This document shows, one piece after another, positions 37,270 through 64,000 of a DNA stretch of 64,000 nucleotides (position 1 is the stretch's first letter; each line of letters starts with the position of its first letter). This stretch comes from Brachycybe producta (taxonomy: Eukaryota; Arthropoda; Diplopoda; Playtdesmida; Andrognathidae), in assembly GCA_036925085.1 (NCBI GenBank), contig JAUPFP010000004.1, forward strand, positions 6,343,413 to 6,407,412, given 5' to 3'. The translations under genes and the position numbers were made by a program. The notes under the pieces are model-generated. The model did not search any database and was not told the DNA's origin. It was given only the letters and a program-made list of their open reading frames with translations.

Positions 37270-37344
<75 letters not shown>

Positions 37345-37364
37345 TCTCTCTTTCTCTCTCTCTC
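37270..37364. repeat. (CT)n microsatellite
   Basis: About 95 bp of CT dinucleotides with two small interruptions, ending CTCTCAG. The final CAG mimics a splice acceptor but no open exon follows. Confidence 0.95.
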
Positions 37365-39363: not shown

Positions 39364-39371
39364 CACTTAGG

Positions 39372-39654: not shown

Positions 39655-39662
39655 CACTTAGG

Positions 39663-42954: not shown

Positions 42955-43420
42955 AGAGAATCCCATAGTCTAGTAACATTTGGAGGAAAAACGACCAAAA
43001 ATAGGCATCCGTTCTAGTCATTAATTCTTTTAAAGTTTTTGAATGCCCTTGTCTTCTCTTACGAGGATGTGTTTTCAATAAGTCATTAAGTAGGGCAATA
43101 TTTTCATCTGCCAGTAAACGTCCGAAAAGGGCAAGGCTTTGGTCATTTCTTCTTGCTGCTAATGATTCTCATTTTAATTCCTGAAGCATAAAAGATACAC
43201 TTCCTTTCACAAATCTTGCAGCCGTATGCTGTACAATTTCTATTTCGTGCTTTAAGTTACTTCTAAATGGGCTCCAAATTGGGGAACAATATTCTAATAT
43301 AGGTTTGACTAAGGTAAAATAACAGAACTCTTTTACATTTTTTTTACAATGTTTAAGGGTGTGTTGGAGAAAATGCAACCTGTGGTTAGCTTTACTAACT
43401 GCATCTTTCCAAAGCATGTC
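42955..43420 (-). pseudogene. LINE (Jockey/CR1-like) RT C-terminal remnant
   Basis: On the minus strand an open stretch (43169-43417) reads KANHRLHFLQHTLKHC, FCYFTLVKPILEYCSPIWSP and EIEIVQHTAARFVKG, the thumb-side motifs that follow the reverse transcriptase core in Jockey/CR1-like LINEs. After a stop it continues ESLAARRNDQSLALFGRLL, and near 42960-43030 TRTDAYFWSFF and a TRLWDSL box in a shifted frame, which is the normal 3' end of these ORF2 proteins. The order matches 8262-8767. It is 5'-truncated and carries stops and a frameshift. Confidence 0.85.
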
Positions 43421-43497
43421 GTTTGATTAACATGGGTTAGCGGAACATCCCCCGTTGTGTATGACCTTGCCCTGCAAGGTGGCCACTTTAAAAAAAA

Positions 43498-43702
43498 AAC
43501 ATAAGTTTTTTAGAAACTAGAATAGTTGGTTTTTATGCTGAAATTTTTTTTTCAGGATAATGTTTTTTTTTTAAAACAAACGTTTGAAAATGATCCGTTT
43601 TCACAATTTTTTTAAATTGTACTATAAAAAGTTTAAAAGTTTAAAAAAAATACCATAAAATTATTTTATTATTATCAAGTACTACTCTAGTTTTTAACAA
43701 AC
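43498..43702. mobile_element. MITE with TTTTAGAAACTAG ends, copy 1
   Basis: The left end TTTTTTAGAAACTAGAATAG and right end GTACTACTCTAGTTTTTAAC are inverted near-copies, and the interior is almost all A and T. The same end sequence occurs at 49843-49990 (both ends), 53702-53747 (collapsed), and singly near 801, 24308, 45880 and 51388. Confidence 0.6.
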
Positions 43703-43737
43703 TTAGAATGTATTTTTTTCTTCCTTAAGGATGTTTA

Positions 43738-44187
43738 TTAAAACATTTCTAATGAAATATGCAAATTGTTTCTAAAGAATCGCTGAAACGTTTTAGCACA
43801 TTGTCTAGTAATTATGTAGATTATCACATTTTCTACTTTAGCGGTGACATCAGTAGCAACTTCAGTAAATTCTATTAAATAATCAGCGCATTCATTAATT
43901 ATGATTGTACATGATATAAGCATATGTAGGCCACAGACACCATAACCCATACACATACAGTACATATACATAAGAATAAACACATTATATGCACATGATG
44001 CACATTGTTTGTTGTTCATACAAGCTAAAAATGTGTTCACAAGAAAAATACTGTATATGATTGAGGTCATCATTGCATTCAACTGTGAACGATTCATCCT
44101 GAAAACACTTTTCCTATATGTCCCTAGAGTAGTGGATGGAAAATCTTTGCTCATTACTGATGAGAGAGAGCATGTACACTTAGCCAA
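43738..44187 (-). pseudogene. 149-codon open frame, faint GPCR TM6-TM7 resemblance
   Basis: This is one of the longest open frames of the window. Two hydrophobic stretches (residues about 42-58 and 72-97) precede a segment (residues about 97-137) reading INECADYLIEFTEVATDV then ENVIIYIITRQCAKTFQRFF. Spacing and residues faintly resemble TM7 and the start of helix 8 in rhodopsin-like peptide receptors (a hydrophobic run, then N-x-x-IY, then basic and aromatic residues). There is no NPxxY, no upstream TM1-TM5 and no splice context. It could equally be a chance frame in AT-rich DNA. I give the family only as a possibility. Confidence 0.18.
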
Positions 44188-44752
44188 TTAGTTTACTTTG
44201 AATCTAAGTCAAAGACATTGTTTGCTCTTTTCCTAAATGGAAGTCCTTTCTTTTTCTTTTCTCTCCCCCTCCTCCTCCCTTCACCCAAAGTCTTAATTGA
44301 TTTATATTGTTTTGGCCCGTTTCTATTACAAAACATGCTTAGTCTTAAACTACTTAAAGAGACCTTAATTTCAAGTCGTTAGTAGGGAAGTTATAACAAA
44401 TATAAATTCGTTTTGTTTCAATTTGAGGTGTATTTTTTTTCCTTTTCTTAGAAAGGAGGCTAGATGAGTGTATTCGATTAGACTGGTTTTTAGCATGCTA
44501 GGCTACTGGCGACCACCTAGGTTTTAGTCTGAAGGTCAAAGGTCTTATGGCAATCAGCATGAAAGAAAAATATATGGCACAATATTGGTGGCCAACTTCT
44601 TCAGGCAACACTAGTTTGCCAGTTATTATCAAGGCTGTGATGAAACTACATTTAAATCTACCATCAAATTGATAGTTTTTTTAGCTTAGCATATGCAACA
44701 TCACTATTTTAATTTTCAGCCAAAATGGAGTGATTTTTGGTGCGCGCTTTGC
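44188..44752. other. AT-rich DNA, nothing recognised
   Basis: No supported feature. Confidence 0.45.
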
Positions 44753-45050
44753 CAGTGATCTCCAACGTGGGTTGCACGCCGCACCCCTTGGTGTGCGTGA
44801 GATGGTACATGGGGGTGTCAGAGATTTTCAATCAATTGATTAATTTTATTGATAATTGTGCGAGTAATTTACGAGAAAACAGTCAATTTTTTGTAGACTT
44901 CTTCTACGTTAAAGTGTCTTCTGCAACAGAAAGAGTTCACTAAACTAGAATACGGTGGCTGTCAAGTAGCCATTTATTTATTCCAGGGTTGCGTGCTCCA
45001 TTTTTTTTACTAAGTTGGGGTGCACGACCCACAATGTTTGGAGACCACTG
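44753..45050. mobile_element. hAT-type MITE, older copy
   Basis: The left end CAGTGATCTCCAACGTGGG and right end CAATGTTTGGAGACCACTG are inverted near-copies of a well-known hAT terminus type, with GGTTGCACGCCG against GGTGCACGACCC just inside. The flanking octamers CGCTTTGC and CGGTGGGC agree at 5 of 8 positions, consistent with an eroded 8-bp duplication. A 68-codon plus frame (44737-44943) lies inside and is incidental. Confidence 0.75.
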
Positions 45051-47311
45051 CGGTGGGCTAACAGCTATTACCTAGATACCTACGCATGTTTACCCTAAAA
45101 GACAATTCAAATGAATTATTTTGAGTTTCCAGACAGTTGCAGTTTTTTTTTCTCTCTAGGCGTCACTTTTTTTTATTCTTAAAAAAAAAGTAAATTAAAG
45201 AAGACACTTCACAAAAAAAATGATTCTAGACCTGCATCGGATTTTTTTTCTTGTATAGTATTGTGTTTTTTTTTTCAATCAAGTCTCTATACCAAGGTTA
45301 CTTGTCTAGAATGTGGATGAAACTGTGGGTTCTAATCATGAATCACAGCAACCAGATGGCATTTCCCCAAAGCCTAACATAAAATGTGAAATATAACATA
45401 ACTGAATTTGATAAATTGATCTGTTATACATGTTGGAGCCCTATGTCTAATAAATGTAAGAAATTGCAGTTGCATAAAAGTAACAAGCAAATTTCTTTTT
45501 CTTCTTCTTATTTCTGTAATATTGTTACGAACAAAATGGAGAATCAGACATTCCACGGACTCTCTAGCCAATGTGCAAATGTCAACATTTTAATAGTAGG
45601 CCTATATGGATGAGATATTTAAAGCTTAGAACTTTCTAGTCCTAGTTTTTTTTTAAATAAAAACTTAGAATGTAAAGGAGAAATTGAAATTATAATAAAT
45701 AGTAGAAAAGTGTAGTATTATTTATATTTATATCTTCAAAAATAAGCGTTTATGACTATTTTTTAAATGACCCAAGTTTGCTAATATGTTTACTTTAATT
45801 TTTTTTCTAACTTGACATAAAAAGTGATTTTGAATTTGATTGTCAACATGAAAAAACCTTTTAGCTTGTTTCAGATTGACTGTTCTAGTTTCTAAAACAT
45901 TTTTATAAAAGTTGTTTATGAATGGCTACAGCAATTAACGTTTTTGAGTAAGACATACGACAACCTTAACAAAAAATGCTGCAACCAATCTCATATTGCA
46001 GTTCTAGACAATATACAAAATGTCTTAAAAACGAGTTTCGTCAATATGAAGATGAGATAAATATTCAGATCAGATATTTTGCACCATTTTCTGAAACGCT
46101 GTTAAGTGAAAAAGATTTATTACCGAATTGGTGATTTTACTAAAAATGACTAGTAAGTCCGTGGACTGACTGATTTTTTCACTTTGGCAGTAACACATAC
46201 TAACTCAAAAAAGAGTTATATGTTTAACATGTCAAATGAATGAGTGGAAATCAATATTTACATTTGTCATTTTGTTCATTTGTAATTGTTTAACAAGAAC
46301 AAAATATAAGAAATGACAACATAGGTGAAAATCTATTCAATTTATATATTTTTTGTGTGTTTGTGTGCAGAACTTGTACTATTAATCTCTCATAGATTCA
46401 AACCCAAATGTCATATAAACAATACTAAATAGTAGATTCTGAAGTACAATTTCGTGCGGAAATAAATTATGTTATTATAGTGAAAACACTTATTTTTTGT
46501 TGTCTGAACATTGCTGTTTTTTTTTGTATGTGCGAACATTTTTTTCTTCTTCTTATTCTTCTTCTTCTGTAAATATTGCAATAGTAAAATACTTTTACTT
46601 GTAAAAAAAAAAATAGAAATCACCACAAACTAATCTTGTTAGGAATGTAACACAAGAAAATGGACAAAGAATTTACTACTGTCTGTGTGCTTGAAACTTC
46701 AATAACAACGAGAAAACAAAAGACAAAATCTTAGAACAACATAACAATAAACACTCTAACATATTACATTTGTTGTCACAAAAAATAATTACATGTACAT
46801 GAACAGGGTTTTTTATTTTACTTTTTTATTATTATATATAAAAGAAAGATTTAATCAACTTTAGCAATCTAGAAATATTACAAGAACTTTATTCTATGAT
46901 TATCTGGTAAAAAAAATAACTGAATTTGTAGCATAGAAATCAGATTAATTTCATTTTGTCTGGTGGAAAAAAACCCTCGTTTTGTAATGAATTTCATGTT
47001 AATACAATAGATGCTATCAGTGATTGCCTCCGTGCAGGGATTCAGCTACAGAAAGGTAAATGGCCGCAAAATGTGAAAAAAACCAACAAAAATATATTAC
47101 CATTATGGATCCTGTGAAGTTAATACATTTTAGAAGCGAATTTAAGACGAAGTTGCCACTACAAGATGTACAAATGAACAAGAAGATATTAATTTAACTT
47201 TTAATTAATTATTATGATGCGTTTCAGCAGCATCACATGAAGAAACTAAGACGAGTTCACGAATCATCTTCAGAATAATAATTTCATGTAGATAATCTTT
47301 AAAAACAAACT
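45051..47311. other. AT-rich DNA, nothing recognised
   Basis: An isolated TTTCTAAAAC MITE end of the TTTTAGAAACTAG family lies near 45885-45900. Short frames only. Confidence 0.45.
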
Positions 47312-47319
47312 TTTTATGG

Positions 47320-47698
47320 CCAGCATGTCAAACTCAAAGGCTAATATGGGCCAAATAAATAAGGTCTTAGTTTACGTGAGCCGCAAAAAAACAAAAACTT
47401 CAATTTTTATAGAAACGTATAGGTTTATTTAGAAAAGTGCACAGTATAAAAAAGAACAAGGACAACGTTAAAATTTAATGTTTTCTTCCAGGAAGAAAAC
47501 ATTAAATTTACCGGTGTTTTTGTCCTTGTTTTTCTTCCTGTGACACTTGGCGTCTCTCTTCTCTGCTACAATCTTTCCTACTTCGGAAGCAAATCGTTGT
47601 TTGCAGTGTTTACTTTCAAAAATGACCCAAAACTGACCCATCTGACAGGGGCTGGGCCGCAAAGATATGCGTAGTGGGCCGCGAATTTGACATGCTTG
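47320..47698. mobile_element. hAT-type MITE (TGTCAAAC end) with perfect 8-bp duplication
   Basis: A 379-bp element with ends CCAGCATGTCAAACTC and, inverted, CAAGCATGTCAAATTC. TTTTATGG stands on both sides (47312-47319, 47699-47706), an exact 8-bp hAT target duplication. The subterminal GGGCCGC/GAGCCGC motifs are inverted too. An internal palindrome, TTTAATGTTTTCTTCC against GGAAGAAAACATTAAA, lies at about 47475-47507. A truncated relative sits at 33882-34114. A minus frame (47468-47662) spans most of it but resembles no known protein. Confidence 0.9.
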
Positions 47699-47706
47699 TT
47701 TTATGG

Positions 47707-48716
47707 TGTTTTTAAATTCTCGATTAACATTTTTTTATTTTTAAGTTGGGCTAACAATTCTAAAACAATTATCTGATAGGTTGATACCGTTGAAAAAAAA
47801 TATAAAATATGGCCGTTTTTTCAAGCTAATAGAAAAAGTTTATTTATAAAAGATATCAAAATGATAAATTCTTTCCGATATTTAGTAATTTTTCTAGTAT
47901 TTAAAACGTTTTTTTACAAAATTCTTAACGATGTTTTCAAAATGTAGAACATCCAGAGTTCTAGAAATGTTTTTTTTTTAATATTTATAAAGCAGACTTA
48001 TTAAACATTCCTATAATCATTCCTCACAGCAGAAACTTTTTATCTGGCAACATTTTTTAAGTTTAGCTTTATTTAAGCAACGTTTTAGATTACGAGAAAT
48101 AGAAAACAAATTTAATACATGTACAATAAACCTTATTTTAATACAGAAAAAAAAAACAATAAACAGATTTCATGAATTTGCAGTTTTGCGAAAGTATTTT
48201 TTTTTCTCTTATGCTGAAGGAGTGGCATAATGAAGACGCCGCAAAATATTGCAAAGTTGTCATCATTGAATTTATTAATCTGAATGTCTTTGTGACTATG
48301 TACACTTTAAGTCAATGGGGCGTCAGAAAAGATCAAATATGTGGGCTATAAGAATCAAGGGAGGGAGAGAAAAAAAAATAGCCTTTATATACACACAGAA
48401 CTATAACAGCCTATACATGTATAGTATATGTCATAAAAATAGCATCTATACTGGTGCACACAGCATGACAGTTTCTATTATGAAAAACCTCTGACAATGG
48501 GTTACTATATGTAGTTCAACATATACAGAGAGGAGACATCATACAGACACTGTTCACACAATGATTGTGGATGGTCAAAGTTAAGCTGATGTAGCCAGAA
48601 TGGCAACAGAAATCGATTGTTGAATGTGTTTTCCGGTGTCCTTCTTCTTCTTCTTACTACTACTGTTCAAAAACTGTTTCAATATCCTCTATGGTTTCCA
48701 TGAAAAACATTTAGGG

Positions 48717-48755
<39 letters not shown>

Positions 48756-49842
48756 ATTCGAGAAAAAAAGGTTCAGTTACTCAATAAAATATAATTAAGA
48801 AGAAAAAAAAAACCACTGAAGTAGCAGGATGCAATAAAAATCTAACAAAAAATTGGATAGTTTTTGAATTAAGACAGAAAATACATTATAAAACAACGAT
48901 CATATAACGTTGAAATTTGAAATATATTATTAATTTAAATAGTCCATACAAAAAAAGCAAGTTATGCTATAACTGATACCATAATATGAGCTTTTCAAAA
49001 AAAGTTCATAGGGTTATATTCTTAATTACTGCTTAGCCAAAGTTAGAGCTAAACTCATCATCTCTTATGAGGAAACTGTCTGTCTAAAGTTAATGAGTTT
49101 AGCTCTATTTTGACGTGAAGGGTTTGTTGTACTAATAAGTTATAAATTTTAAGGCGAAATAAGCTTAAGAGGAAAAAATTGAGCTGAAGTAAGCTTTGTA
49201 ATTTCTGTAAAAGTTTTGCTATTTATGGAAATTCTGAAGGTGAATTGTTTGAGCTTTTGTTAAAATTCACTTTCAGCTAATAATGTCATAATCATGTGAT
49301 CATTTTCAACCAATTAGAAGTGGCCTTATTTTTCCATCGTATTGAAGAACAATAGAGAACATGGTAAAGAGTGCAATATAAATAATGTTTACATTTTTAA
49401 ATTCAATAAGTTAAATAATTTAATTACCGGTATAGTAAAATTACATCAGTTTCTAATTTAATTATAGTAAAATTAAATAATTAATAATTTAATTATATGG
49501 ATAGTAAAATTAAATAATTAATACAATTAAAATAAGATAATTAATTAGCACATTTGTTAGTATTAAAAGTGGTCTGTATCTTGTATGACAAATCATTTCT
49601 GTGTATTTAGTTTAGAATAGCTTCAGCTTGTCTGTGATTGATAAAAGACGACCATTTTTCTAAGCTTATTATTGAAGCTGATTTTTCCAAAATGTTTTTT
49701 TCATCTTCAGCTACATCTTCAGCAAAACAATTTCAGCTTACCTATATTTTAACCTTTAAGTTACCTACAGTTTTAAGTAAAACGTGTCATATTAGATCTC
49801 TGGAGAATTCTACGTTTTGAAAAGAAAAAAAAAAAGAAAACT
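47707..49842. other. AT-rich DNA; (TA)n at 48721-48753
   Basis: No coding signal. A TAATTAAAT-rich tract lies at about 49410-49545. Confidence 0.5.
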
Positions 49843-49990
49843 TGTTTTAGAAACTAGAAAAGTAAGTTCTCTGTAGCATTATTAGCATTGAAAATTGAGA
49901 ATTTAAATTTGCTGTAAACAGTTTATTTTCAAAGTTATCAATATATTTAATTTCTCGTATATTTACTATTCTAGTTTGTAAAAAACACTT
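49843..49990. mobile_element. MITE with TTTTAGAAACTAG ends, copy 2
   Basis: The left end GTTTTAGAAACTAGAAAAGT and right end TACTATTCTAGTTTGTAAAA are inverted near-copies enclosing an AT-only interior of about 100 bp. It is related to 43498-43702. Confidence 0.65.
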
Positions 49991-50851
49991 AATTTTATAA
50001 GAGGACTGACTGGTGGAAACAATTGTTTCACAAATCTCAAACATTTTTTTAAAGGTTTATTTTTAGTTGTACTTTAACTATGGCAAAGAGATTTTTCAAC
50101 ATTTTCATCATCTTTCAGACAGAATTTTGCCTAAAGAAAAATCTTTCTCTGCTGTTTTTTTTTTTCGTAAAAATGATATATATATATTAGAATATTGTGC
50201 AGGTTTTTTTGTTCGTTTTTCTTGTTTCTAAGTCGTGATGCCATCGTTTGTGGCATATAAGAAGAAGAAAAAACTCATAGTTCCTATGAAATCTGGTTAG
50301 TATTTTCCTAAAGGATAAAAGGAAAGAGAAAAATTGAAGAAGAAGGGGTTTACACACTCGAAATTTCAATAGAAAATCCTGACCATTTTTGAACGTGCTT
50401 AGACTATAACCTACATCTGTGTGCCCAATACAATGAGAACCCAAGGAAAAAAAATATTGTTTTTATACCCAAAAATAAGGTTTATGTGCATGTATGGGAT
50501 GGCAAATGGTAAATCAGAGTAAAGAGAGAGAGAGAGAGATAGAGAAAGAAAAAAAACTAGGAAGAATAGAAGGAGGGGGGGGGAGGGGAAAGTTGTTGGT
50601 TGTGTGGGTTTTTTTTTTTTTTTTCTTCTAAAGTCGACATTATCCTACCACCTGCCATTCAGTTCAGAAATCGGACGCTATATCACATCAAAAATGACAT
50701 CTTTCAAAGAGATTGGGACTGTAGAATGCTATTATTGGTTATATGGCAAAACTCCAAAATCTATGCCTTTAAAAACCGTTGCAATGAGTCCAGTATGAAA
50801 AATAATCTAAGGACATATTCTATTGTAATTCTATGCCCCTATATGTGTATG

Positions 50852-50904
<53 letters not shown>

Positions 50905-51512
50905 CCTAATATGCAAATTTGTCTTCCAATATTAAAGAAACGTTTGAAAATAAATTGCACTTTAGCAGATTTTTGCATAGGAAAGCATTATTACTTTCTC
51001 ATTGAATTTTTTATTCTTCTATACAAGAGCAGCTGGACTGTTCTTTTTTGTATTTTGGCTATCGATTTCTATATATGGGCTATATTATCAGTCTTTAATA
51101 AAAAGAAATCTAATGGTATAAGTTAGGCATAAGTTTTTGACTTTTGTAAAATGAATAATATTCTTATTAAGCGGCGATCTCACTGGTTTTTTTTACAGCA
51201 AGATTCACTACAAAATTATTGCTGTGGTATAGGCTTGCAAAGTCAAAGTCATTTTATCTTAATGGCAATATTTATTTGCCAATTACAGTTTTGTTTATTT
51301 CTGTGAATATTAATTATAATTTGAAGTAAAACATTTGAGTTGTTTTAAATAAAAAGGAGCAAAATTCGTGTAAGCTTAAGGTGATTTTAGAACTAGAAGA
51401 GGAAAGAAATCACTTAAAGGCCTTAAGTGACAATTTTCATTTTTGTAAAAATCATAATAATTAATTGGTCAGTTTGGTGTAAGTAATAAAAAGTTTATTT
51501 TTAAAGCTTATT
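49991..51512. other. AT-rich DNA; (GA)n, poly-G and (TA)n tracts
   Basis: A GA tract lies at about 50523-50540, a G-run at about 50574-50584, a T-run at 50609-50623 and (TA)n at 50856-50903. Open frames across 50600-50935 are low-complexity. Confidence 0.55.
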
Positions 51513-52091
51513 TTAAAGAGACCATTACTTCCAGAAATTTCTTGGCAAAATATTGTCAAGAATTATTCAACGATTGACAAAACGATTTTTAAAATTTAAA
51601 ATAAGTCATTAATATAATTAAAAAAAAAATTAAAAATCAGTTGACTTCATGTAAATTAACTTTATCAGATAGATGCGACACCAAACAACGAACATTGGCA
51701 ATAAAAACCCAAAATATACTCCTTATACTTCCTACTCGAATTTTGATTGTGTCAGTACTATGACTTTGATTTTTGAATTATACCACCTGCCACGTGGCTT
51801 TCCAGCTGATTGGAAGGTTGTATTGAGTTGAATGTAACTAGGGAATACAGGTATACGAATTAGAAATTATGGAAATGTGATTTGACAATATTTGCCACTA
51901 AATTGAGGGATAGATTTTCGTTTTTAGAAATTTAAAATGGCATTGTTTGGTGACTCAAGAAAAGTCACTTCATTTTTACGTTTTCATGATTTTATTGACT
52001 TATTTTTAAGTTTAAAAATCGTTTTGGTTATCATTGGGTAACTCTTGACAATATTTTGATAAGAAATTTCTGGAGGTAATGGTCGTTTTAA
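51513..52091. mobile_element. TTAA-flanked foldback element, copy 2
   Basis: Homologous from end to end to 22884-23465 and in the same orientation. It starts TTAAAGAGACCATTACTTCC and ends CTGGAGGTAATGGTCGTTTT with AA completing the TTAA (52088-52091). The conservation of TTAA at both borders in two independent loci supports piggyBac-type mobilisation. It is non-coding. Confidence 0.75.
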
Positions 52092-52545
52092 TGTCGCTTG
52101 TGAATTCATGCAAGTCCGTGCAAGAGTATTACAATTACAATTTATTGCAGAGGGCATATTGCAGTAAACCTTGCTGTAAAAATAGCTTCTTCGTAAAATT
52201 AAGTAAGGGCAAGAAATAAGTCAAATATAACTGTGAACCATATTTGGTATCACTGTGTAACGTTTTAGATGTTGGCCACCTGGACACACCCACCGTTCAC
52301 TAAGACTGTTTTATGTAATATTGCTTTTAAAATAATTGCCTATCTAGAAATGCAAATAATGTCAGAATATATTTTTGTTTTATTTTTAATATTTAATAAT
52401 ATTTCAATAGAAACAACAACAACAAAGAAAAAAATGAAAACGAAAAAAAAAACGTACTCAGGAAAAAAGAAATTTTAATATTTATGTTTTTTTTTTGTAG
52501 TTAGCTAAAAGGGACTTCTTTTTTTTTTGTCAATTTTCCTATCTG
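52092..52545. other. AT-rich DNA, nothing recognised
   Basis: No supported feature. Confidence 0.45.
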
Positions 52546-52650
52546 CACATTCTGTTATTCATCGATCTGTCAAACATTGTAGTGTCACCTCTATAGAAAC
52601 GTATAGACGTGACGTAACACTGCTTGACAAATCGATGAATAATGGAATGT
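52546..52650. mobile_element. 105-bp palindromic MITE-like element
   Basis: CACATTCTGTTATTCATCGA and TCTGTCAAACATTG at the left mirror ACTGCTTGACAAATCGATGA and ATAATGGAATGT at the right. The arms occupy nearly the whole element. Confidence 0.65.
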
Positions 52651-53079
52651 ACGGTAGGCCTGTGTGATCCTTCTTTTTATAAATGTTGTACAGAACTTGC
52701 AAATCTAAAAAAAAATATATAAAACAAATATTCAAAAAGTAAACATGACATTTGAGCTACATCTTGAACCCTCTGAACAAGGTTCTATAACGTAGAAAAT
52801 TTCTGTTCAAGTGTACTCAATAAAACCAGGCATCTTATGTATAGAAACAATGCTTAAAGAGTTCAATTTAAGTCCAAATGCTAAGTTTTCCTATCTTTGA
52901 CATTGTAAAGACAGTTAATGTTCTAGTTACTAGAATCTAGTGGAAGCAAACGTGGTTACTAATGTGAGCAGAGAGGATTCTTGGCTCTATTTTTGTAGCT
53001 CGTTTTTTTTTCTCTCTATCGCGTGTGGTAGCCACACGAAGAAGAAGATTGGAGCGATGCTAATAGGCGGATAGTGATG
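52651..53079. other. AT-rich DNA, nothing recognised
   Basis: No supported feature. Confidence 0.4.
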
Positions 53080-53607
53080 GATGGTTGGCAAACTCCTGAG
53101 ACGGGGTGAAATCTCTCAGAAGGATGGCGGCCATCCGTTTCTGATCGTCGACGTTGCGCTGAAGGGGTTGTTAGCCCTCTTGCCTTATGGTGTTCAAAGA
53201 AGAAGGTTAGTTACCAAACAAAGAGACCACGTAGCTTCTGATTATAATCACTTTATTCATTCTTGTGGCAGAAACATTAAGACATACAAGAATGAATGAT
53301 TAGAATTATAGATGTGTGTGTCTATGGGCTCATTGTTGTAATATAGATATAGTGTTTTACGTATTATAAAGTGTGAACTTGATCAAGAGAAATAGACACT
53401 GAACAAAGGGAAACGCGATCTTTTTATGCACTTGGACCCTTGTGTACACCTACGAGGTGTAATCAGGTCTAAGTGACTGTGGTCCGAGAGATATCTCTCT
53501 CCGCCCGATCAAGTTTAACACAGAGAGAGGGAGGGACAGTGAGGAGTCATGCACCCCCAGGCTAGCATTCTGGGGGGGGGGAGGATTACGACCTACCGGG
53601 TGTTACA
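53080..53607 (-). mobile_element. LTR-like segment (Ty3/gypsy-type start), minus strand
   Basis: Read on the minus strand it begins TGTAACACCCGGTAGGTCG at 53607, a typical gypsy LTR start. A TATA-like GCATAAAAAGATCG lies at about 53428-53415 and a GAATAAAGTG polyadenylation signal at about 53257-53248, the order expected within one LTR. It is GC-richer than its surroundings. The inner boundary and a target duplication could not be fixed, so the left limit is approximate. The integrase remnant at 55987-56643 is on the same strand to the right. The 2.4 kb between them holds unrelated MITEs, and no polypurine tract abuts the LTR start, so a single element is unproven. Confidence 0.5.
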
Positions 53608-53701
53608 ATAATAATTTATTCAATCTAATTAAAAGTTGAAAACGAGTTCTGATTATTTTGTATTTCAGAAGGAAACATTAAGAACACATTGACATTGTTT
53701 T

Positions 53702-53747
53702 ACAAATTAGAAGAGTAATTTGAAAATTACTCTTCTAATTCCTAAAA
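53702..53747. repeat. Collapsed MITE (TTTTAGAAACTAG family): both ends fused
   Basis: TACAAATTAGAAGAGTAATTT is followed immediately by GAAAATTACTCTTCTAATTC and CTAAAA. Two family termini thus stand head to head with no interior. This is an internal-deletion derivative or a minimal palindrome. Confidence 0.55.
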
Positions 53748-53845
53748 CAATTTCACTTAAAACGATTTTCTTATTCGATTTCTCTACAAAATCAACTTAT
53801 TTTAACGATATGGACATGAAAACACCATTACGCGACACACTTTTA

Positions 53846-54069
53846 GGCCAGCTTCACACGAATTACTTTGTGGAGTTGCTTATTGGTGTCACAAGATGTT
53901 TGACATGGACGCTTTTTTTTACATGGATCACCACTGAAAACAATGGCAATTTGTCAGTGCTAGACTAAAGGAATCGTTGCTGACAAACAGGCGGTGGTCG
54001 CCACTTGTGGCCAGACTCAACCATTCATAGCCATTTGTGATGCATAAAATGGTCCGTGTGAAGCAAGCC
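53846..54069. mobile_element. PIF/Harbinger-type MITE with TTA duplication
   Basis: A 224-bp element with ends GGCCAGCTTCACACG and CGTGTGAAGCAAGCC, inverted with two mismatches. TTA borders both ends (53843-53845, 54070-54072), as made by PIF/Harbinger transposases. Its right TTA overlaps the first base of the duplication of the adjacent hAT-type element. The 82-codon plus frame (53720-53968) overlapping it is incidental. Confidence 0.8.
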
Positions 54070-54079
54070 TTACTGTTTC

Positions 54080-54542
54080 TAGTGATGTTCCAATAGCGAT
54101 ATGAATAGGAATACTATCGTAATAGTCGACTACTCAATATTCAAACTATCGAGTGGTTTAGCAATCGATAGACCGCGATAGATAGCGATCGAAAAACCTA
54201 CAATCACGTATATTATAGTGACATTGGTGTTTAGTGAGTGTGTAGGGAGGTTGTGAATGTGACAATGTGGCATCATTTGGTATCATGATTTAAATTTTTT
54301 CATTATTTTCAATAAAAATCTCCAAAAAAACATTTATTTTCATTATTCAGATCAACAAGAATTTATCTTCAAAAACAATGGCTTTTCAGTTTGCAGTCGG
54401 TTTTGTAAAAGAAATATTTCCACCCATTGAGATCAGATGAAAACTATGTATAGTACTATCGATATTGATGCGACTATCGATACTATCCATCGGTCGTGTA
54501 AAATACTATTGATAGTTTATTTTTTACTATGGCACATTACTA
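54080..54542. mobile_element. hAT-type MITE rich in TATCGATA motifs
   Basis: The left end TAGTGATGTTCCAATAG and right end TATGGCACATTACTA are inverted near-copies of a hAT terminus type. The flanking octamers ACTGTTTC (54072-54079) and ATTGATTC (54543-54550) agree at 6 of 8 positions. ATCGATAG-like motifs crowd both subterminal regions in both orientations, as is usual for transposase-binding repeats. The element is 463 bp and non-coding. Confidence 0.75.
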
Positions 54543-54550
54543 ATTGATTC

Positions 54551-54644
54551 TAGAAGATTTTCAAATTCAAGCAAAAGAGCCACGGAGCATAGCCACCTAT
54601 GATATAAGGCCTGACTTGATGGCAATTTTTGTGGTCGTAAATTG

Positions 54645-54680
<36 letters not shown>

Positions 54681-55691
54681 GGCTATGTTTAAACACTCAT
54701 TTAACAAGCTTTACATCTTTATGACCAGTTACATCACTCAAGTAGGATGTTACATTTGAGATGTGACCTGTGGCATGTCTCTTGACTTCTGTTAAGTATG
54801 TTAAAATGCGTCCTATAGTGCCATAGTGATGCAAAATTTCCTAAATGAGTGACCACATTTTCTAATTGTTTTTGTTGTTTTCAGGGACATTTAAGAGTGC
54901 GTCAAAACTAGAACAGTACTTGCTCGCGTTGTTCTGTTTGCTGTGGCCAGTGTCCAAACTTTTAACAGAACACGTTTGCAAACATGTGTGCAACGTGTTC
55001 TCAGAACCACCAATGCGTTGTGTATTAAAATACATTCATTGAGGTGCTTAGAGCTAATTTTATGTGAACTGAAAAACTGAGTTGTTTTGTTGCAGCTGAA
55101 GATGGCTAAACACAATAGGTGAAACACATATTCATTTTCAGCTTACTGCTTCAATACAAGAATTTCATCTTCAGCTCACTAGTAAATGCACCTTAAGAAA
55201 ACAAGCTTTAAACAGACTTCAGGACTGCCAAGTATTGCCGTGTGTCTGTCTAGTGCTTGCCACGTTCTTATAACACCATTTAGTATCTTGTGACAAATTG
55301 CTTACATTAATTATCTAAAGTGTCAAACGAACTGACAAGAATCTTTTTCTAAGAATTTCGAATTGGAACTGAAAAAAGGTGATTCTTCGAATACATTAAT
55401 AGAGATTGGTTTTAATCACTAACATGAAGGTTTCTATTATACAGACTTGAATCTGGATTTTTTACATAAGCTAAATAAAACACAATGCAAGAGGTGCCTC
55501 AATACTTGACAAAAATCCTATTCATTTAAGGTGACTGTAGAGATATTTATTTTGTTTTTGTCCCCCTTCCCCTTCCCCCTCCCCCCCCCCTCTATGATGG
55601 CACGCCGACTGAAGAGATATTTATTATAAAAAATAAAATTGTCTTCACGAAAAACGCTTCAATATTTCTCGACAGCTTTTCCTCCCATTCT
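54551..55691. other. AT-rich DNA; (ATC)n at 54648-54678
   Basis: No gene recognised. An imperfect inverted repeat around GTGTTCTGTT and AACAGAACACG at 54932-54975 may be a MITE scrap, and a poly-C/T-rich tract lies at 55560-55592. Confidence 0.45.
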
Positions 55692-55878
55692 CGGATGGCG
55701 CGCCTGCATGGCTAATATTCCTCCACTGGCGCTTTTGAGGAAATTTATGTTTTTCAAGCGAACGTTTTTCAGGAGAAAAAACGCAAATTATTTTAGATAC
55801 TAAAATAATTGGTTATAATGCTAATTGTTTTTTCGTGATGACGTCTTTAAAAATAAACTTTATGACATTAAATCCATA
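55692..55878 (+). repeat. Dispersed repeat R, copy 2
   Basis: Same orientation and order of blocks as 681-896 (CGGATGGCGC, AAATTTATGTTTTTCAAGCG, ACGTTTTTCAGGA, TATAATGCTAAT, CTTTATGACATTA). The superfamily is unknown. Confidence 0.55.
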
Positions 55879-55986
55879 GTACTTTGAATCTTCTGACCAA
55901 TTTTGTACTCATAAGGTGCCGTATGTCGTTTGTCGTAGTACTTTTTGCGTCTTTCGTGCGTTTCTTTCAGGTTTCTTCTGGCTTTT

Positions 55987-56643
55987 CTAATTCTGCTTCT
56001 TGGTGTTCCTCTGCTTGCTGTCGACGAGGTTTCCGGCCTCTGCCTCTACGAATCTTGGTTGTTCTGGAACTAGGTTCTCGACTTTTTTTTGAAGTTCCCG
56101 TCCAAACATGAGTCTGTGTGGTGTAAACTTCGTAGATGAGTGTACCAACGAATTATATGCCTCTAGCACACTATAGAGTTTACTAGCCCAATCGGTTTGC
56201 TTCTTTCCTGGGGTTAGATAACTCTTCATCGTCTGTATGATGTTCTTGTTTGTTTGTTTGGCAAGACCATTACTTTGTGGATGGTACGCTGCCATTGTTT
56301 CATGCTCGATACCATACTTTTTGAAAAATGTCTGGGTATTTCCTGCAACGAACGGTGTTCCTTGATCCGAAATGATCTTCGTTGGTCTTCCGAAGGTTTT
56401 CCTCACTTTTTTTTAAGGAAGTTGATGACGATTTGTGCTGTCGTATTCTTGACTGCTGTTGTGACACAGCAGTAGAATGTGCTTGGTTCCTCTAACCGAT
56501 GACACTAATAGTCCAACAGAGTCCATTCCCCAGCATTCACAAGTTTCACCAATGGGCATCTCCTGGAGGAACCATTCAGGTTTCTCTACGCAACTTGTGA
56601 AGCTAACAAATCTCGCAAGAATTGGCATATTCAAAGATGTCAT
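55987..56643 (-). pseudogene. Ty3/gypsy retrotransposon integrase remnant
   Basis: The minus strand carries the integrase core. CWGMDSVGLLVSSVRG (about 56530-56485) holds the first catalytic Asp. IISDQGTPFVAGNT (about 56375-56335) holds the second. AAYHPQSNGLAKQTNK follows, where the third catalytic residue, normally Glu after NGL.A, is replaced by Lys. YNSLVHSSTKFTPHRLMFGR is the usual region after the core. The two parts are in the same frame but separated: about 20 codons near 56460-56415 are readable only in another frame, between a small indel and an 8-A run at 56407-56414, giving a TAA in the main frame. Two compensating frameshifts plus the lost Glu make it inactive. No protease, RT or RNase H was found nearby. 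Confidence 0.85.
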
Positions 56644-57588
56644 GTTTCATATTGTTCCAATAAAGAGGAGATGCCTGTCTATTAAGTTACATTAATTATA
56701 CACGGTGAGAATAAATGCAATTCGTCACAATAAGGAATTTTATTTTTCAAATGTTGGTGTAACAATTGGAGAAAAAGGTAAAATTGAAAAATTCCGAGGA
56801 GTACTGAGCAGTGAGTAGTACCCCTTAGAAAGTTTCAATGGGTGCTTGAGTTAAAGTGCACCCGCTCATTCGGTGCTTTTATAGCCACTCATTTGGGTGT
56901 TTTCTAAGTGTTTCCTGCATACACTAACACTATTTGAAAACGACAACATTCTTTGAAAATGGCTTCAAATACACCCAGGTTCGGATATGTAGCTGCTTTG
57001 AAATGCTCTGAAAAGGTCTCAGAAGGGCTCATCTGGTCCTAGACCTCTCAAAAACTTTCAAAAATTACAAAGATTCAAGAACTTTTTAAATTAAAAAATG
57101 TGAACTGTCATCGGTTGTTTCTCTTGTGTGGATGGTTGCAATTAAAGTCTTATAATTCCTGTTGACACTTGTCTCTTGATTATATTTCTTCAATAGTATT
57201 GTTACCCCTATGTGGACATTACATTTGAGAGAGACTTTGTGTCAGTAACATGTTTCACTATTACAGACACAATGTTTTTTCTTCTTGCTACATGTTTCGT
57301 GGTTATGGAAACATCTGGCGACATTGGCGAACATAAGTGTTTGAAACGATTTGCCTCTTTGTAGTACAGGCTTAAGGATTTACTTTGAAGAATCTCCCTC
57401 ATAGTGTTTTTGTGGATTTATTCAGTTAGCAAAATAGAGTATTTATATTAGAAGCTGGTGGTAGCCTTCAATAAATGTGTTGAAAGAGTTTAGAACTTCG
57501 TACGGTACATAGTACAATTCGTATTCGTACATAGTGGCTATTAATCGACAGAATTTCCTAAGAAAAAAAAATGATATCTCCGAATGTA
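56644..57588. other. No recognised gene
   Basis: Possibly further eroded retrotransposon sequence upstream of the integrase remnant on the minus strand, but no motif is readable. Confidence 0.4.
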
Positions 57589-57914
57589 GGGCGAGTCAGA
57601 ATAAACGGTATGGCTTCTTACAGGGCAACGACCACGGCCGACTAAATAGATGAACCGACAAAGAAGATGGGACATGTTCCATTTTTTTCCACAGATCCGA
57701 TTGTCGGCTGTGTAATGGAACCAGTACACGGCCGAGGACACGCGCACGAAGTACTTGTCCGGTGGTTTATAGTGTTTATATAGGTTCTAGACAGTACGCG
57801 TGCATGATGGCAGGCATCCACACACAAGCACAACAACAGACAAACTGACGGTCGTGTGCGCTGACCTGACTACAATCTAGTCTGTCACCGACTGTTTGTC
57901 GTCTGCGCTCGCCC
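57589..57914. mobile_element. PIF/Harbinger-like element with GGGCGAG ends
   Basis: The left end GGGCGAGTCAGA and right end GTCTGCGCTCGCCC are inverted near-copies. The right border is TTA (57915-57917) and the left border GTA (57586-57588), so a TTA duplication with one substitution is likely. The interior is GC-richer than its surroundings. A partial related right half lies at 58516-58640. Confidence 0.55.
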
Positions 57915-58354
57915 TTATACAAATGAAACCTGGCAAGGTTTTTTTTTTTACTATCTAGGCATAAAGAAGATATTTTTTTTTCGTTTCGAATTATTAGATA
58001 AGTGACATGAAAAAATTATTTTAAGATGCCGCTTTTTACATAAAACAATTTGCAAATATTTTCTAAATTTGCATATGTATATGTCTTCCACAACAGTACA
58101 GAAAACATTGATTGTGGGTTTCTTTGATGTATTCTGCATAGATGATACAGCATTCTTGTAACACTCTTGGTAGTTGTGATATGTCACTTGTGTGCAACCA
58201 GTGAAGTATTTTAACAGGGCTGTCATTGTCACTGATTTGCATTTGCAGTGATGATACAGAATACAATTGCTGACAACAATACACTTTTTTGTGTGTATTT
58301 TTGCAAATGCCACAAGAGGATACTGTGTGGGCTCTGTGACACTGTTCAGAAGAC
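57915..58354. other. AT-rich DNA, nothing recognised
   Basis: Two overlapping minus frames (97 and 120 codons) show no recognised domain. Confidence 0.4.
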
Positions 58355-58515
58355 ATGCACTAGGTTATTGTCAACAGTAGCTGGATAAGGATTTAAGTGA
58401 TAGGGTGTGTAATTGGATTCATTGTTAAACAATGGAAAACAAAGAGGTGTTATTGATGGTGCTGTATTAGATTGGGCAATGGTTACATTAGGGGTTCCTC
58501 AGGATAGTGATCTTG
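58355..58515 (+). pseudogene. LINE reverse transcriptase fragment (GVPQG box)
   Basis: The plus frame around 58420-58510 reads LDSLLNNGKQRGVIDGA then DWAMVTLGVPQDSDL. This corresponds to the LINE segment with the W-x-x-SFLxNRKQRV stretch, the VVDG turn and the GVPQGSVLGP box, with PQG changed to PQD. Upstream (58355-58420) stops interrupt a KLLS...YG-like part. Strongly decayed. Confidence 0.65.
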
Positions 58516-58640
58516 TTTCACGCACAACCACAAACAAACTGACGGTCGTGTGCACTTGCGTTTTGTCGACCTTAGACATCTGACAGACTGTTACAACCTG
58601 GTCCGTTACCAACTGTCTGTTGTCTGCACTCGCCCTAAAA
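58516..58640. mobile_element. Partial right half of the GGGCGAG-end element
   Basis: AACTGACGGTCGTGTGC, then CAACTGTCTGTTGTCTGC and ACTCGCCC followed by TAA, matches the right half of 57589-57914. No left terminus was found. The sequence abuts the LINE fragment directly, so one of the two truncated the other. Confidence 0.5.
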
Positions 58641-59922
58641 CTCAATGACTCACAACGTTGTACTCTAATATGGTGATGAGCTAGCTACCAGTAATTATCT
58701 TGTTCGGTAGCCGATGCTCGACTAGGTTTGCACTGATGCGACTTCAGGTGAGACACTCGAGTCACTCCTTAAGTCAGGGTAGGAATCAATGCTCCACACT
58801 GTTTTCGCCCTTATACAATTTGAAAACTCTTTCATAAATTGCTTCAAAAAGGCATTTTACCTGTTTTACTGCACCATAAACTAAAGCCTTTCTCAAAAGG
58901 GTGTTTTAAGGCTTTGTGTTTCATATAAAAACTATTTTTGACCTAATCTTTCATGTCTAACTTTTCTTGTAATGAGTCCTTTTGCTTTAATTTTATTAAC
59001 TAGAGTGACAGTAACGTGGAGAGAATTATGTTTTTCATTAATTTGTTGTAGACCTAATTGTTTTGTTTATAATTAATAACAAACAGTGTGAGTTTTTTTA
59101 GAACGCTTACACTGTTTAATTTGAAGATGTTTTAAGCTCCTTGTACTCTTTTTACATATATTTTTTAATAATATTTGAGAGCCTCTTATTCTTTTCTAGT
59201 TAGGTTAATCCTTTTAATTCTTTAATTTTAGTACAACAGATGTTATGCTTTTTTTTTTGCTTCATCGTTTCTTTAGTATTTTGATACTTTTTCTTGTTTT
59301 TAAGTGTTTAAGTGTTGCAGTTCATGCTTTGAATTAAAAAAAAAAAGATTAACATGAGAGAAAATCAATTTTAATTTCAAAATAACTATATGAATAATTG
59401 AATAGAAAATCATTATTAATTAATTTGCGCAAGTATTTTTTTTACTTTATTTTCTATAGTACATGTAAATATGTTGCCATCAAATTGAAACATTAGTAAT
59501 GTTGTGAAATCTTTAGTTAATTATAAAACTATTAATTCGTTAGTAAATCTGCGCATTAACTACAAATTGTCGGCAGATTGCAGAATACCTTTATCAACAT
59601 GCCAGTCTAAATAATAGATTGGCAACATTTTGTATTTTTTTATTATTATTAATTTACTCATTTTAAACATGTTTTTTTTTCATATGAATAAAAATGAGCA
59701 AAACCTTTTTTACTCCAGAATTTTTTAGTATTAGTGACAAGTTTGATGAATAAAACAAATTCTAATTGCATTATGCATGCTAGTGCTCTGAGATAGAACT
59801 TACTTATAAAAAAATTAAGTGTAATTTTTAAGGTGTTTTGAAAGTAATGGTGTCGTGACAAGTTACATTTAATAGTAAGTATAGTTACTTTTGAAAGCAA
59901 TTGTTCTAACACTGTCTTGTCT
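58641..59922. other. AT-rich DNA, nothing recognised
   Basis: TCGCCCTTATACAA recurs at about 58806, similar to the right flank of 57589-57914. Otherwise there is no supported feature. Confidence 0.4.
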
Positions 59923-60378
59923 AGGGCGCATGAAATCCTTTGCAACGGCCTAGTCATTGTCTAGAATTTTAACCTATCTGCAGCAGTGTTTTGAAGTTGA
60001 TGATTTTACAAATTGACTTGTATGACTTTGCAGAATGCCTGATTATTTCATTTTGCCAGTGCGACCAATACAAGAGGGCACGTGAAACCCTTGCTACGGC
60101 CTAGTCATTGTCTGGAATTTTAACCATTGTGCAGCAGTGTTTTACGGTTGATGATTTTTCAAATTGACTGGTCTTGCTTTGCGAAATGCCTGATTTTTTT
60201 TCATTTTGCCAGTGCGACCAATACAACAGGGCACATGAAACCCTTGCTACGGCCTAGTCATTGTCTAGAATTTTAACCAATGTGCAGCAGTGTTTTGAAG
60301 TTGATGATTGTACAAATTGACTGGTCTGACTTTGCAGAATGCCTGATTTTTTAATTTTGCCAGTGCGACCAATATATA
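59923..60378 (+). repeat. 152-bp tandem repeat, three copies
   Basis: Units start at 59923, 60075 and 60228 with AGGGCRYRTGAAAYCC and continue through CGGCCTAGTCATTGTCT, GCAGCAGTGTTTT, AAATTGACT and TTTTGCCAGTGCGACCAATA. Spacing is 152 and 153 bp, and units differ at roughly one base in ten. The array ends in a short TATATA run. No unit has an open frame through it. It is a small satellite-like array with a nucleosome-scale period. Confidence 0.92.
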
Positions 60379-61239
60379 TATGCTTGAATTATTTTGAATG
60401 TTAAGATATTTTTGCATCACTTGCATAAAGCATTTAGATTATATGTAATACTCAAACAAAAACTAAATTGCTTTTAAATAACTTTAGTCACATACGTGTA
60501 ATCTTCCTTTTTTAAAAAAAAAAAACAAGAAAAAAAAAACAAAATTGCTACCTATGCCTAGCATAGAATTTACAAAGGATTTTACTCATGACTCAAGAGA
60601 ATATTTTTAGGATCTTCTGTGGGATTCCATTTTTTCTGGTATATAAACGCTTATTTATTACTGATGACCAACTTAATACTCAAACGAGCCGCATTCCAGC
60701 AACGACAAAGATTACTGAGAACGTTTTTGATATTTTTTGTTGTTGTTGTTTGCTGTATTTTTTACTGAGCTCTTAAACTTTTTTTTTACAGTGTCAAGTT
60801 TCATTTGACTTCTGTTGCTTTTTTTACATAATTTTTTTTTTTTGAAAAAAAAAAAAGAGCCGCGTTTAGGAAACTTATACTGTGTAATATGACTTATCAA
60901 TGCGCAATGCTAAAAATACAAATAACATTTGTGGTATTTGATCCACTAAATTTCAGCTTTATCGAGTTCTATGAATTTGTGCATTACGGTAGAGTTATTT
61001 ATCATATAAAAACATACACATGGTGATACACTTTATATAGCCTGTTATATTTATACCTACAGAGTGAACACAAAAAATATTTTAAGCCAAGTTCTCACAT
61101 GCATAAAAAAAGCTAACTTAAAATGAAATTTGTTGTATCTCAATAATTTTATTCTATTTTTTTTGTCAGAAAGTAGACAGAAAAGAAAGCTGAACTGGTT
61201 TCAACTTTTTTTTACTTTGCCGAGCCGAATTACATTTTG
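60379..61239. other. AT-rich DNA, nothing recognised
   Basis: No supported feature. Short frames near 60588-60900 are low-complexity. Confidence 0.45.
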
Positions 61240-61557
61240 TCATCTAATACTAAGGTATCCTGCAGATGCACAATAGGTTATGTGACATGACTGGACTTCT
61301 GCCAGCCATTTCTGCTGATTTTGCTCGGCACCGCCACTCGCAACTCCAGTCTTTTGTGGCATGCCTGGACCTTCGTTTGGAGAGATCCAGGCAGTTCCTT
61401 TGTCTTGACTTTTCACTCCTCGTGGTCGAAATTCGTATTTAAAGAGAAAGTGAGAATCACTTGATCCTCCGAAAGTAGAAATAACTGAGACAACACCAGT
61501 TATGATACAGTAAATGTAACACTTGGTACATAAACCGACTTTACAAACTGTGATCAA
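61240..61557 (-). CDS. Unrecognised protein-like open frame
   Basis: The 105-codon minus frame contains a stretch with balanced composition (KYEFRPRGVKSQDKGTAW, ISPNEGPGMPQKTGVASGG, EQNQQKWLAEVQ) that stands out from the AT-driven frames around it. The start is hydrophobic and Cys-rich. A CTCAG acceptor-like site lies near 61500 on the minus strand. I do not recognise the family. It may be an exon of a minus-strand gene, a processed-gene remnant or a transposon fragment. Confidence 0.25.
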   Translation of the reverse strand: MITVCKVGLCTKCYIYCIITGVVSVISTFGGSSDSHFLFKYEFRPRGVKSQDKGTAWISPNEGPGMPQKTGVASGGAEQNQQKWLAEVQSCHITYCASAGYLSIR

Positions 61558-61630
61558 ATCTGAATGATCATAATATTTAAGTAACTTTGAAACTTAAAGA
61601 TATTTCTCTCTGCAGAAATATTTTTTAAGT

Positions 61631-61900
61631 TCAAAAAGAACTTAAATATATACTTTTCCAACATACTGTAGTAACTGTACTTAAAACTTCCAGATTTTCC
61701 AACTGCCGGAGGTTACCTTGCATGCCAGTTTTATTCTTTTGGCCCTTGGGAGGGACCACTGTCAACCACAGGTTAAACTGACCAATACTTTTTGGGACAA
61801 TATTCTTGAAAATCATTTTGGGATATTTCTTGCGCACTGGTTTTTCTGATTTTTTGTTATTTCGATTTTTATTTTCTGATTTCTTTTTTTTTTCAAGCAT
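61631..61900 (-). CDS. Unrecognised protein-like open frame, Lys-rich start
   Basis: An 89-codon minus frame. A Lys/Asn-rich head (residues 1-27) precedes KYPKMIFKNIVPKSIGQF, NLWLTVVPPKGQKNKTGMQG and NLRQLENLEVLSTV. Composition is more protein-like than background, and it lies next to 61240-61557 on the same strand, so the two could derive from one unrecognised gene or element. No domain was identified. Confidence 0.2.
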   Translation of the reverse strand: MLEKKKKSENKNRNNKKSEKPVRKKYPKMIFKNIVPKSIGQFNLWLTVVPPKGQKNKTGMQGNLRQLENLEVLSTVTTVCWKSIYLSSF

Positions 61901-62078
61901 GTGGGACCTAATCCTTACACTTGTAAAATTTTATAGAAAATTAACGAACTGTAGCGTGAAATTCGCGTTTACATCGGGTCAATGAATAAATTCTCAAAAC
62001 TCTCAATCGTAATATTGTAATTCACATGAGACTAGAATTGGTTCAAACTATAAAGTAATGCAGTAGCAATATACTCGT

Positions 62079-62154
62079 AAGGTGGCTTTCTACATGTGCA
62101 TGTGCTTTGTGCAGACTTAACTACATTCTGCGCGTGTGCAATGGAGAGCCACCT
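62079..62154. repeat. 76-bp palindromic element
   Basis: AAGGTGGCTTTCTACATGTG at the left and GTGCAATGGAGAGCCACCT at the right are inverted near-copies around a short loop. It is a minimal MITE or hairpin immediately beside the open frame at 62153-62503. Confidence 0.5.
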
Positions 62155-62503
62155 AGCATTGATGTTGCATTGCGTAAAGGTCTCTGAACCAGCTCTTATG
62201 CAGTGGATTTGTTGACATCGTGGCTGCTATGGCTGCTATGTCAAAGAGTGTGGCAGAGTCTGGATAAACGCTTTGGCCGGGTTCAGTTCCGTAGGATGTA
62301 CATGTTGTATTTTGCGAGCTTGGAAATGAACTCAATGCAGTCAATGAGATCGATGCTGACAAATTGATATTTTGTAGTTCGATAATCGGATTATTCCAAA
62401 AGTCTATATAGGCCTGACTCAATGTTCTTTGATCGAAATTGTGATATTTTTTTGTACACGATACATCGGCATTTAGCATAAGGCCTACTATTTTTTTTAC
62501 CAA
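62153..62503 (-). CDS. Unrecognised protein-like open frame
   Basis: A 116-codon minus frame with a balanced, Ser/Thr-rich composition (LSQAYIDFWNNPIIELQNIN, LSASISLTALSSFPSSQNTT, ATLFDIAAIAATMSTN, WFRDLYAMQHQC). The stop lies just inside the palindrome at 62079-62154. No family is recognised and no promoter or splice site could be tied to it. Confidence 0.22.
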   Translation of the reverse strand: MVKKIVGLMLNADVSCTKKYHNFDQRTLSQAYIDFWNNPIIELQNINLSASISLTALSSFPSSQNTTCTSYGTEPGQSVYPDSATLFDIAAIAATMSTNPLHKSWFRDLYAMQHQC

Positions 62504-62965
62504 AATTACTGTTTAGGGTGCAATTTTAATTATACTTTTATGTCATGTATGGCGGTTTTAAAGGCGATAGGCCTATATCGCCTGTGTATATCACGCGATT
62601 TATTACGTTTTTTTTAAATGTTAATTTTATTATTGTATACTTGATAAAACCGGGGCAGACTGGCCTATAAAAAAATCGAACATTTTCTCGGTGGGCCGGT
62701 TTTTTTCTTTCTCATTGAGTGCAGATTTTATAACGAAACTCGATTAAAGTTTCATAAAAGAAAAATAGCGGAAAGTTGATTTTTTTTTAATGAAATAAAA
62801 AAAAAATTTGCTCGCTACGCTCGCTGTACGTTAGTGAAAAACAATCAAAGAAATTGACACGTTTCTTGTTAGTAAAAATTTCTTTTGGTTCTATTATCAG
62901 AACCAAATGAAATTTTTGATGGAATTCTAGTAATTTCTGTGCTTCCTTTAATCCTTGCCTTGTTT
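62504..62965. other. AT-rich DNA with a possible transposon end
   Basis: GGGGCAGACTGGCC at about 62652 and GGTGGGCCGG near 62690 resemble a DNA-transposon terminus. No partner was found. Confidence 0.3.
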
Positions 62966-63126
62966 CCATTGGGGTGAAATTTGAACTTTTTTTAAAAATT
63001 CCAACTAGTGGAAAATATAACAAACGTGGCCTTCGCCTATGACAGTGACTGGGCGGGGCCAACGAGTGTGACGAGTGTTCACCAGTTGAATTTTTTTAAA
63101 AAAAGTTTAAATTTTCACCCCATTGG
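62966..63126. mobile_element. Palindromic MITE family C, copy 2 (complete)
   Basis: The ends CCATTGGGGTGAAATTTGAA and TTTAAATTTTCACCCCATTGG are inverted copies. The arms continue through TTTTTTTAAAAATTCCAACT against AGTTGAATTTTTTTAAAAAA. The truncated relative is at 1918-2034. Confidence 0.75.
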
Positions 63127-63655
63127 AAAGAAGGCCTTACGGCCAGTAAATCATTTTTTTCGGGCCGTTTCTTTTTTCTTCTCGCAAATTCGCGCTAAAG
63201 TTCTACCACTAGCTCATCTGATTTAACTTTTTATATAATTTTGAATTCGTTTGTATTCATCCTGTATTCGTGGTGCAAATGCCAAGGTGTGTGTGTGAAT
63301 AAATTTACAAATTTCAACTGTATAAGATACATATAAAAATATATCTCTAAAAAAAGGACCTATTGAGAAATATCAGAAAAAAAAAACTAAGTCTAACTTC
63401 TTCATTTCTTCTGCTCTAATGCAGTTGAATGTTGTTTAAAAACGTTCACGACAATGTAAGCTTTTAGCATACATAGCCTGTGACTGAAATCATTTTTGTT
63501 CAAATAATGTATTTTGAACCAAAAAAAATGCTTCTATTTTTTTTTTCTGGCAAAAAAAAAAGAACAATTTTTTATATTTTATCTAGACATAGGCGGTTGA
63601 AAAATAAATTGAACTCATTTTTTTTCTCTTCTTTCTATCTTGTTTATATATATAG
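63127..63655 (+). other. Intron end upstream of the Dpr-like exon
   Basis: AT-rich intronic sequence ending in a pyrimidine-rich tract (TTTTTTTCTCTTCTTTCTAT, about 63618-63640) and the acceptor AG at 63654-63655. No other exon was recognised between the MITE and the acceptor. Confidence 0.6.
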
Positions 63656-63869
63656 GTATCATGGATTCGTCGCAAAGATTATCATATCCTCACGAATGCA
63701 CAATACACATACACGACTGATCAACGCTTCCAAGCCATACATCAGGATCGTACTGATGACTGGACCTTGCAAATCAAATATGTTCAAAAGAGAGATGCTG
63801 GAATCTATGAATGTCAAGTGACGTGGGAAAAGGGTGTTACAAGCTGGTTTGTAACACTCAACGTTGTAG
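63656..63869 (+). CDS. Exon of a Dpr-like immunoglobulin-domain protein (partial)
   Basis: This internal exon encodes 71 codons plus one base, the second half of a V-type Ig domain. Residues 1-12, VSWIRRKDYHIL, carry the core Trp of strand C. DDWTLQIKYVQKRDAGIYEC (34-53) is the Dpr signature, with the D-A-G-x-Y-x-C motif and the F-strand Cys at 53. FVTLNVV (65-71) is strand G. The partner Cys and signal peptide must lie in upstream exons. Dpr proteins are cell-surface Ig proteins that pair with DIP receptors in insect neurons to guide synaptic specificity, and they normally have two Ig domains. The acceptor (AG at 63654-63655) and donor (GTAAAG at 63870) are good, and the exon ends in phase 1, usual for Ig exons. 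There is no internal stop. Family placement is secure. The individual member, and Dpr versus a close DIP/lachesin relative, is not. Confidence 0.92.
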
Positions 63870-64000
63870 GTAAAGTCCTATATATGTTTTTTATTTTTTT
63901 TTTTTTTACCAGTAGCACTAAAAACAGTATCAGTGGAACCTTACCAAATAGTGAAATATCAAATATATTAGACTTTATGCTGTGGTCAACTAATACCCCT
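63870..64000 (+). other. Start of the following intron
   Basis: The donor GTAAAGTCC at 63870-63878 is followed by AT-rich, T-rich sequence to the window end. The second Ig domain would lie downstream, outside the window. Confidence 0.7.

Follow-up and report, generated by a model that had tools for sequence, protein, structure and literature searches.

The stretch of DNA analyzed here (64,000 nucleotides, C4:6343413-6407412, from here on the window) carries towards its end an internal exon of a Dpr gene, E2, located on the plus strand at 63656..63869. It is 214 bp long, starts in phase 0 and ends in phase 1, and codes for strands C to G of the first Ig domain (Ig1); its 71 complete codons are followed by one base, the first of a Val codon that the next intron interrupts. 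The stop-free translation of 63656-63868 (+) is VSWIRRKDYHILTNAQYTYTTDQRFQAIHQDRTDDWTLQIKYVQKRDAGIYECQVTWEKGVTSWFVTLNVV. Ig1 is split by an intron of 141,940 bp, which ends in a pyrimidine-rich stretch and an AG acceptor (63611..63655, +), the junction itself being ...ttgtttatatatatag followed by GTATCATGG. At the other border ACGTTGTAG is followed by gtaaagtcc, with the donor site gtaaag at 63870..63875 (+), and the Ig2 exon comes after a 12,631-bp intron, beyond the window, at C4:6419913. The borders of the original prediction (63655/63656 and 63869/63870) were confirmed, with an AG acceptor, a GT donor and phases that match those of the homologous exon, of 211 bp, in three paralogues of the gene (B, C and D, see below). 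An open frame alone carries little weight here, because the whole window contains 111 stop-free segments of 71 codons or more in its six frames. The pattern W[ILV]R..W[TSD]L..DxGxYEC, picked when E2 was already known, occurs once in the window, at E2.

For this exon V-set, I-set and ig exceeded their Pfam cut-offs, and Ig_3 and Ig_2 stayed below theirs. In a protein search of E2 against 177,635 PDB sequences the six best matches were all fly Dprs: Dpr6, the closest solved relative (E 1.5e-26, far more than chance would give), followed by Dpr10 (2.5e-22), Dpr1 (7.1e-21), Dpr4 (5.9e-20), Dpr2 (8.5e-20) and Dpr11 (1.9e-16). The first match outside the Dprs was Robo2 at 7.9e-08, and zig-8 scored 2.3e-05. 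E2 has Tyr17 and Tyr19 in common with Drosophila Dpr6 (PDB 5eo9) and, in the phmmer alignment, the loop Val too.

We searched the assembly (295 Mb, 442 contigs) for the rest of the gene, hereafter gene A, with a fly Dpr ectodomain as the query. The first half of Ig1 was found at C4:6265032-6265133 and Ig2 at C4:6419906-6420211, both on the strand of E2. The original description of E2 as half of an Ig domain holds, the other half of Ig1 being in the upstream exon. Once delimited by splice sites, the first part of Ig1 (E1, +) ends at C4:6265127 in phase 0, 78 kb before the window, E2 occupies C4:6407068-6407281 (+) and the Ig2 exon, E3, C4:6419913-6420209 (+). A short predicted tail exon, coding for a hydrophobic C-terminal, was located by a scan at C4:6421902-6422041 (+). 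The four exons are on one strand, in order and with compatible phases, separated by introns of 141,940, 12,631 and 1,692 bp, and therefore the window up to 63655 (1..63655, +) is part of one single intron of ca. 142 kb. E2 was joined to an exon that far away because there were four matches to the first half of Ig1, one per Dpr gene. That gene finding based on ATG codons would miss E2, as had been claimed, is true, although it holds for any internal exon and is no peculiarity of this one.

The tail exon is the least sure part of the predicted architecture, two Ig domains and a hydrophobic C-terminus. The scan covered ca. 21 kb, looking for an acceptor followed by a frame with a hydrophobic end, and gave five candidates; the top one (GDKSAAMQH...IIVIWAIIWLMYSTYDDMR) was accepted because it is similar to the tail of paralogue B (GEKPGALQHG...), and it was absent from an earlier scan run with different thresholds. 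The genomic prediction has the arrangement of a Dpr, two Ig domains and then a hydrophobic C-terminus, and extends as far as the predicted tail exon. The arrangement of a DIP is three Ig domains. With Ig1 and Ig2 joined, the best PDB match was Dpr4 (PDB 6eg0, E 9.9e-62), followed by Dpr2 (1.6e-41), Dpr6 (2.8e-41, Ig1 only) and then Dpr10, 1 and 11. Beyond the Dprs, the best DIP scored 7.5e-20, zig-8 6.8e-10, and the IgLONs were weaker than the best DIP. Ig1 of gene A is therefore nearer to the Dprs than to DIPs, IgLONs or zig-8. As for the contents of the window, no Rfam match was found in it, and the Pfam search of its two longest open frames (both at least 150 aa) gave no match. The intron contains two tandem repeats, one with three copies of a 153-bp unit (59923-60374) and another with units of 16/32 bp (4133-4614).

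The genome contains at least three other Dpr genes, each with three Ig exons and phases as in gene A: paralogue B (C4 3,569,274-3,679,357, minus strand), paralogue C (C5:5526549-5663090, minus strand) and paralogue D (C8 6,573,803-6,624,160, plus strand). Dpr4 was the best PDB match for each of them (C without its first exon). Paralogue C is 66% identical to gene A over the part compared, C's first exon omitted. The differences between these two by codon position are 17, 16 and 40 (codon 59 of A omitted), and the same accumulation at position 3 appears in the six pairs of paralogues, as under purifying selection. Downstream of the Ig2 exon of paralogue C there is a further exon (C5:5504753-5504965, minus strand) with an in-frame TGA, within a 1,101-bp stretch that is 85% identical to the exon of paralogue B and its flanks; it is probably a dead copy of the Dpr exon of B, on a contig other than that of B.

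A tree built with nine Dprs and eight DIPs (17 rows, those of the DIPs covering just the exon-2 part, 35% of the columns) separated a Dpr side and a DIP side at 100/100 each. Gene A was found on the Dpr side, joined to paralogue C at 95/95, its position relative to the fly subgroups not being settled by this tree; Dpr4 grouped with Dpr1 and Dpr2 (92/94), without gene A. When the DIPs were omitted and fly Dpr8, 11, 12 and 13 (presumed sequences) were added, A and C came out next to Dpr8, 12 and 13 in a part of the tree without resolved forks, the A-C fork was lost, and B went with Dpr1/2/4 at 86/89. This second tree gave no resolved grouping of gene A with the presumed Dpr12 or Dpr13. The identity first read from the letters of E2, that of a Dpr, stands with the Dpr6 match for the exon, the Dpr4 match for the two Ig domains and the 100/100 of the Dpr side.

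We consider it almost certain that E2 belongs to an apparently intact Dpr gene, in which it would be spliced to E1 142 kb upstream, to the Ig2 exon 12.6 kb downstream and, after it, to the hydrophobic tail exon. A decayed or orphan exon copy, with no live gene around it, has a probable precedent in this same genome in the copy on C5, but E2 is open, keeps both splice sites and is accompanied by E1 upstream and by the Ig2 and tail exons downstream, all in consistent order and phase, besides a codon-position pattern that looks constrained; such a relic is very improbable here. Even less credible is that the exon comes from another Ig family, be it a DIP, an IgLON/lachesin-like or a zig-8 type protein. 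All of these have a common fold and score as relatives, but over the two-Ig region Dpr4 and the best DIP differ by ca. 42 orders of magnitude in E-value, with the IgLONs weaker still, and the tree places the gene among the Dprs with full values. We give equally little credit to E2 being one of several mutually exclusive exons for the binding face, an arrangement for which tandem, very similar Ig exons elsewhere in the genome offer a parallel; between E1 and Ig2 only one such exon appears among the matches listed in the genome-wide six-frame searches. E2 is a real exon, correctly recognized, of a new Dpr of a well-known family, and the function of the gene is most likely ordinary.

The stretch after the Cys had been singled out as differing from the Drosophila pattern, and this is so against five fly Dprs (Dpr1, 2, 4, 6 and 10) and the three paralogues. 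The F-G loop of E2 has one more residue after the Cys than all eight compared Dprs and is without the [SN]-[TS]-x-P common to the eight; this motif plus the standard loop length is a criterion drawn from these rows and no published defining feature. Trp appears twice in the stretch, and codons Asn14-Ala15 (63695..63700, +) are Val-Gly or Ala-Gly in 8/8. Compared to Dpr6 in particular, the F-G loop is longer by one residue and has no Pro, Trp stands at two positions, and residues 14-15 are Asn-Ala where Dpr6 has Val-Gly; the loop differences from Dpr4 are the same. The loop of paralogue C, SSDPPISHF, is of standard length, unlike that of gene A. The remainder of E2 is not unusual, since codons 1-54 contain two strictly private substitutions and the other rows between 0 and 2.

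The F-G loop, with the codons for T-W-E-K-G-V at 63821..63838 (+), is known to affect partner choice. It carries the interface positions 29 and 31 in the numbering of PMC7195491, where changes at these positions made Dpr11 bind its DIP more weakly. By mapping, with the Val164 of PMC6374074, these positions are the Gln and Val of STQPV in Dpr6, both in the F-G loop. The extra residue of E2 falls between positions 29 and 31 in the phmmer alignment and after both in the MAFFT alignments, and therefore which residue is the additional one depends on the alignment.

The loop need not be new. Fly Dpr12 presumably has the loop STPTGIISHF, with the length of that of E2 and Gly at the same place, and the two are the only ones of 13 alignment rows with the extra residue. 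The presumed Dpr12 sequence also resembles E2 in its WIRR-x-D-x-HIL start, and differs from it in a loop without Trp. Four strings from Dpr12 or like it had no match when the text of papers was searched, and the Dpr12 sequence used here is therefore provisional. An unprecedented loop was rejected on account of this Dpr12, equally long, and the loop of E2 is probably within the known variation of Dprs. That gene A gained the F-G residue, in the loop with the specificity positions 29 and 31, and changed codons 14-15 after the duplication that separated it from C is a scenario that we regard as rather unlikely. The longer loop merits a line in the annotation and no claim.

Dpr proteins are neuronal surface labels used in partner recognition. 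The larger part of the GFCC'C'' face, which Ig1 of a Dpr uses to bind the Ig1 of a DIP located on a different cell, would come from E2, and the tail exon would anchor the protein to the membrane, either by GPI or as a transmembrane segment. Neural expression of gene A and its binding to a DIP are what the family would lead one to expect, and the longer loop might have an effect on partner choice. We have found possible partners in the same genome. A search with a DIP-like exon listed 13 matches, a lower bound, of which six are pieces of DIP-like Ig1, all on C4, that form at least five genes, four are Dpr exons and the dead copy, and three are weaker matches on C110, C47 and C48 (E 0.003 to 0.4) that were not counted. 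In the tree all five DIP-like genes grouped with the DIPs, and for the two compared to PDB the best matches were DIPs. In one of the five (loci L048 and L049, C4:6576104-6578922, minus strand) the second half of Ig1 is spread over two exons, separated by an intron of ca. 2.6 kb that has a plausible donor and acceptor. The match on C110 (115242-115385, plus strand) is a weak DIP-like Ig half-domain with 35% identity, E 0.003 and a CQIST motif. All five of the DIP-like genes that were found lie on contig C4 (9.76 Mb), together with two of the four Dprs.

Clusters of Dscam-like Ig exons were also found in this genome, at C11:293146-424956, C11:1733042-1828865 and C37:1573796-1655389 (loci L035-L041 and L043). 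Four of these loci (L035, L036, L037 and L043) were read and have very similar sequences. One of the exons matched residues 617-707 of the PDB chain 3dmk (E 7.9e-29), titin being first by summed domains; we take these residues of Dscam to be Ig7. The clusters are similar to the sDscam arrays described for Chelicerata (PMC4835542), a likeness that by itself would suggest a chelicerate.

Published work has Dprs in every major arthropod group. The fly has 21 Dprs and nine DIPs (PMC6374074), and a spider gene named dpr6 was expressed only in the CNS by in situ, according to PMC10848406; a dedicated study of chelicerate Dprs was not found among the literature matches listed. Established knowledge of the family is unchanged by our results. 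What is gained is a nearly complete model of one Dpr gene and a list of at least four Dprs and at least five DIP-like genes. If these counts are near complete, a set as small as this, in which one loop is odd, could suit the study of how recognition networks diversify.
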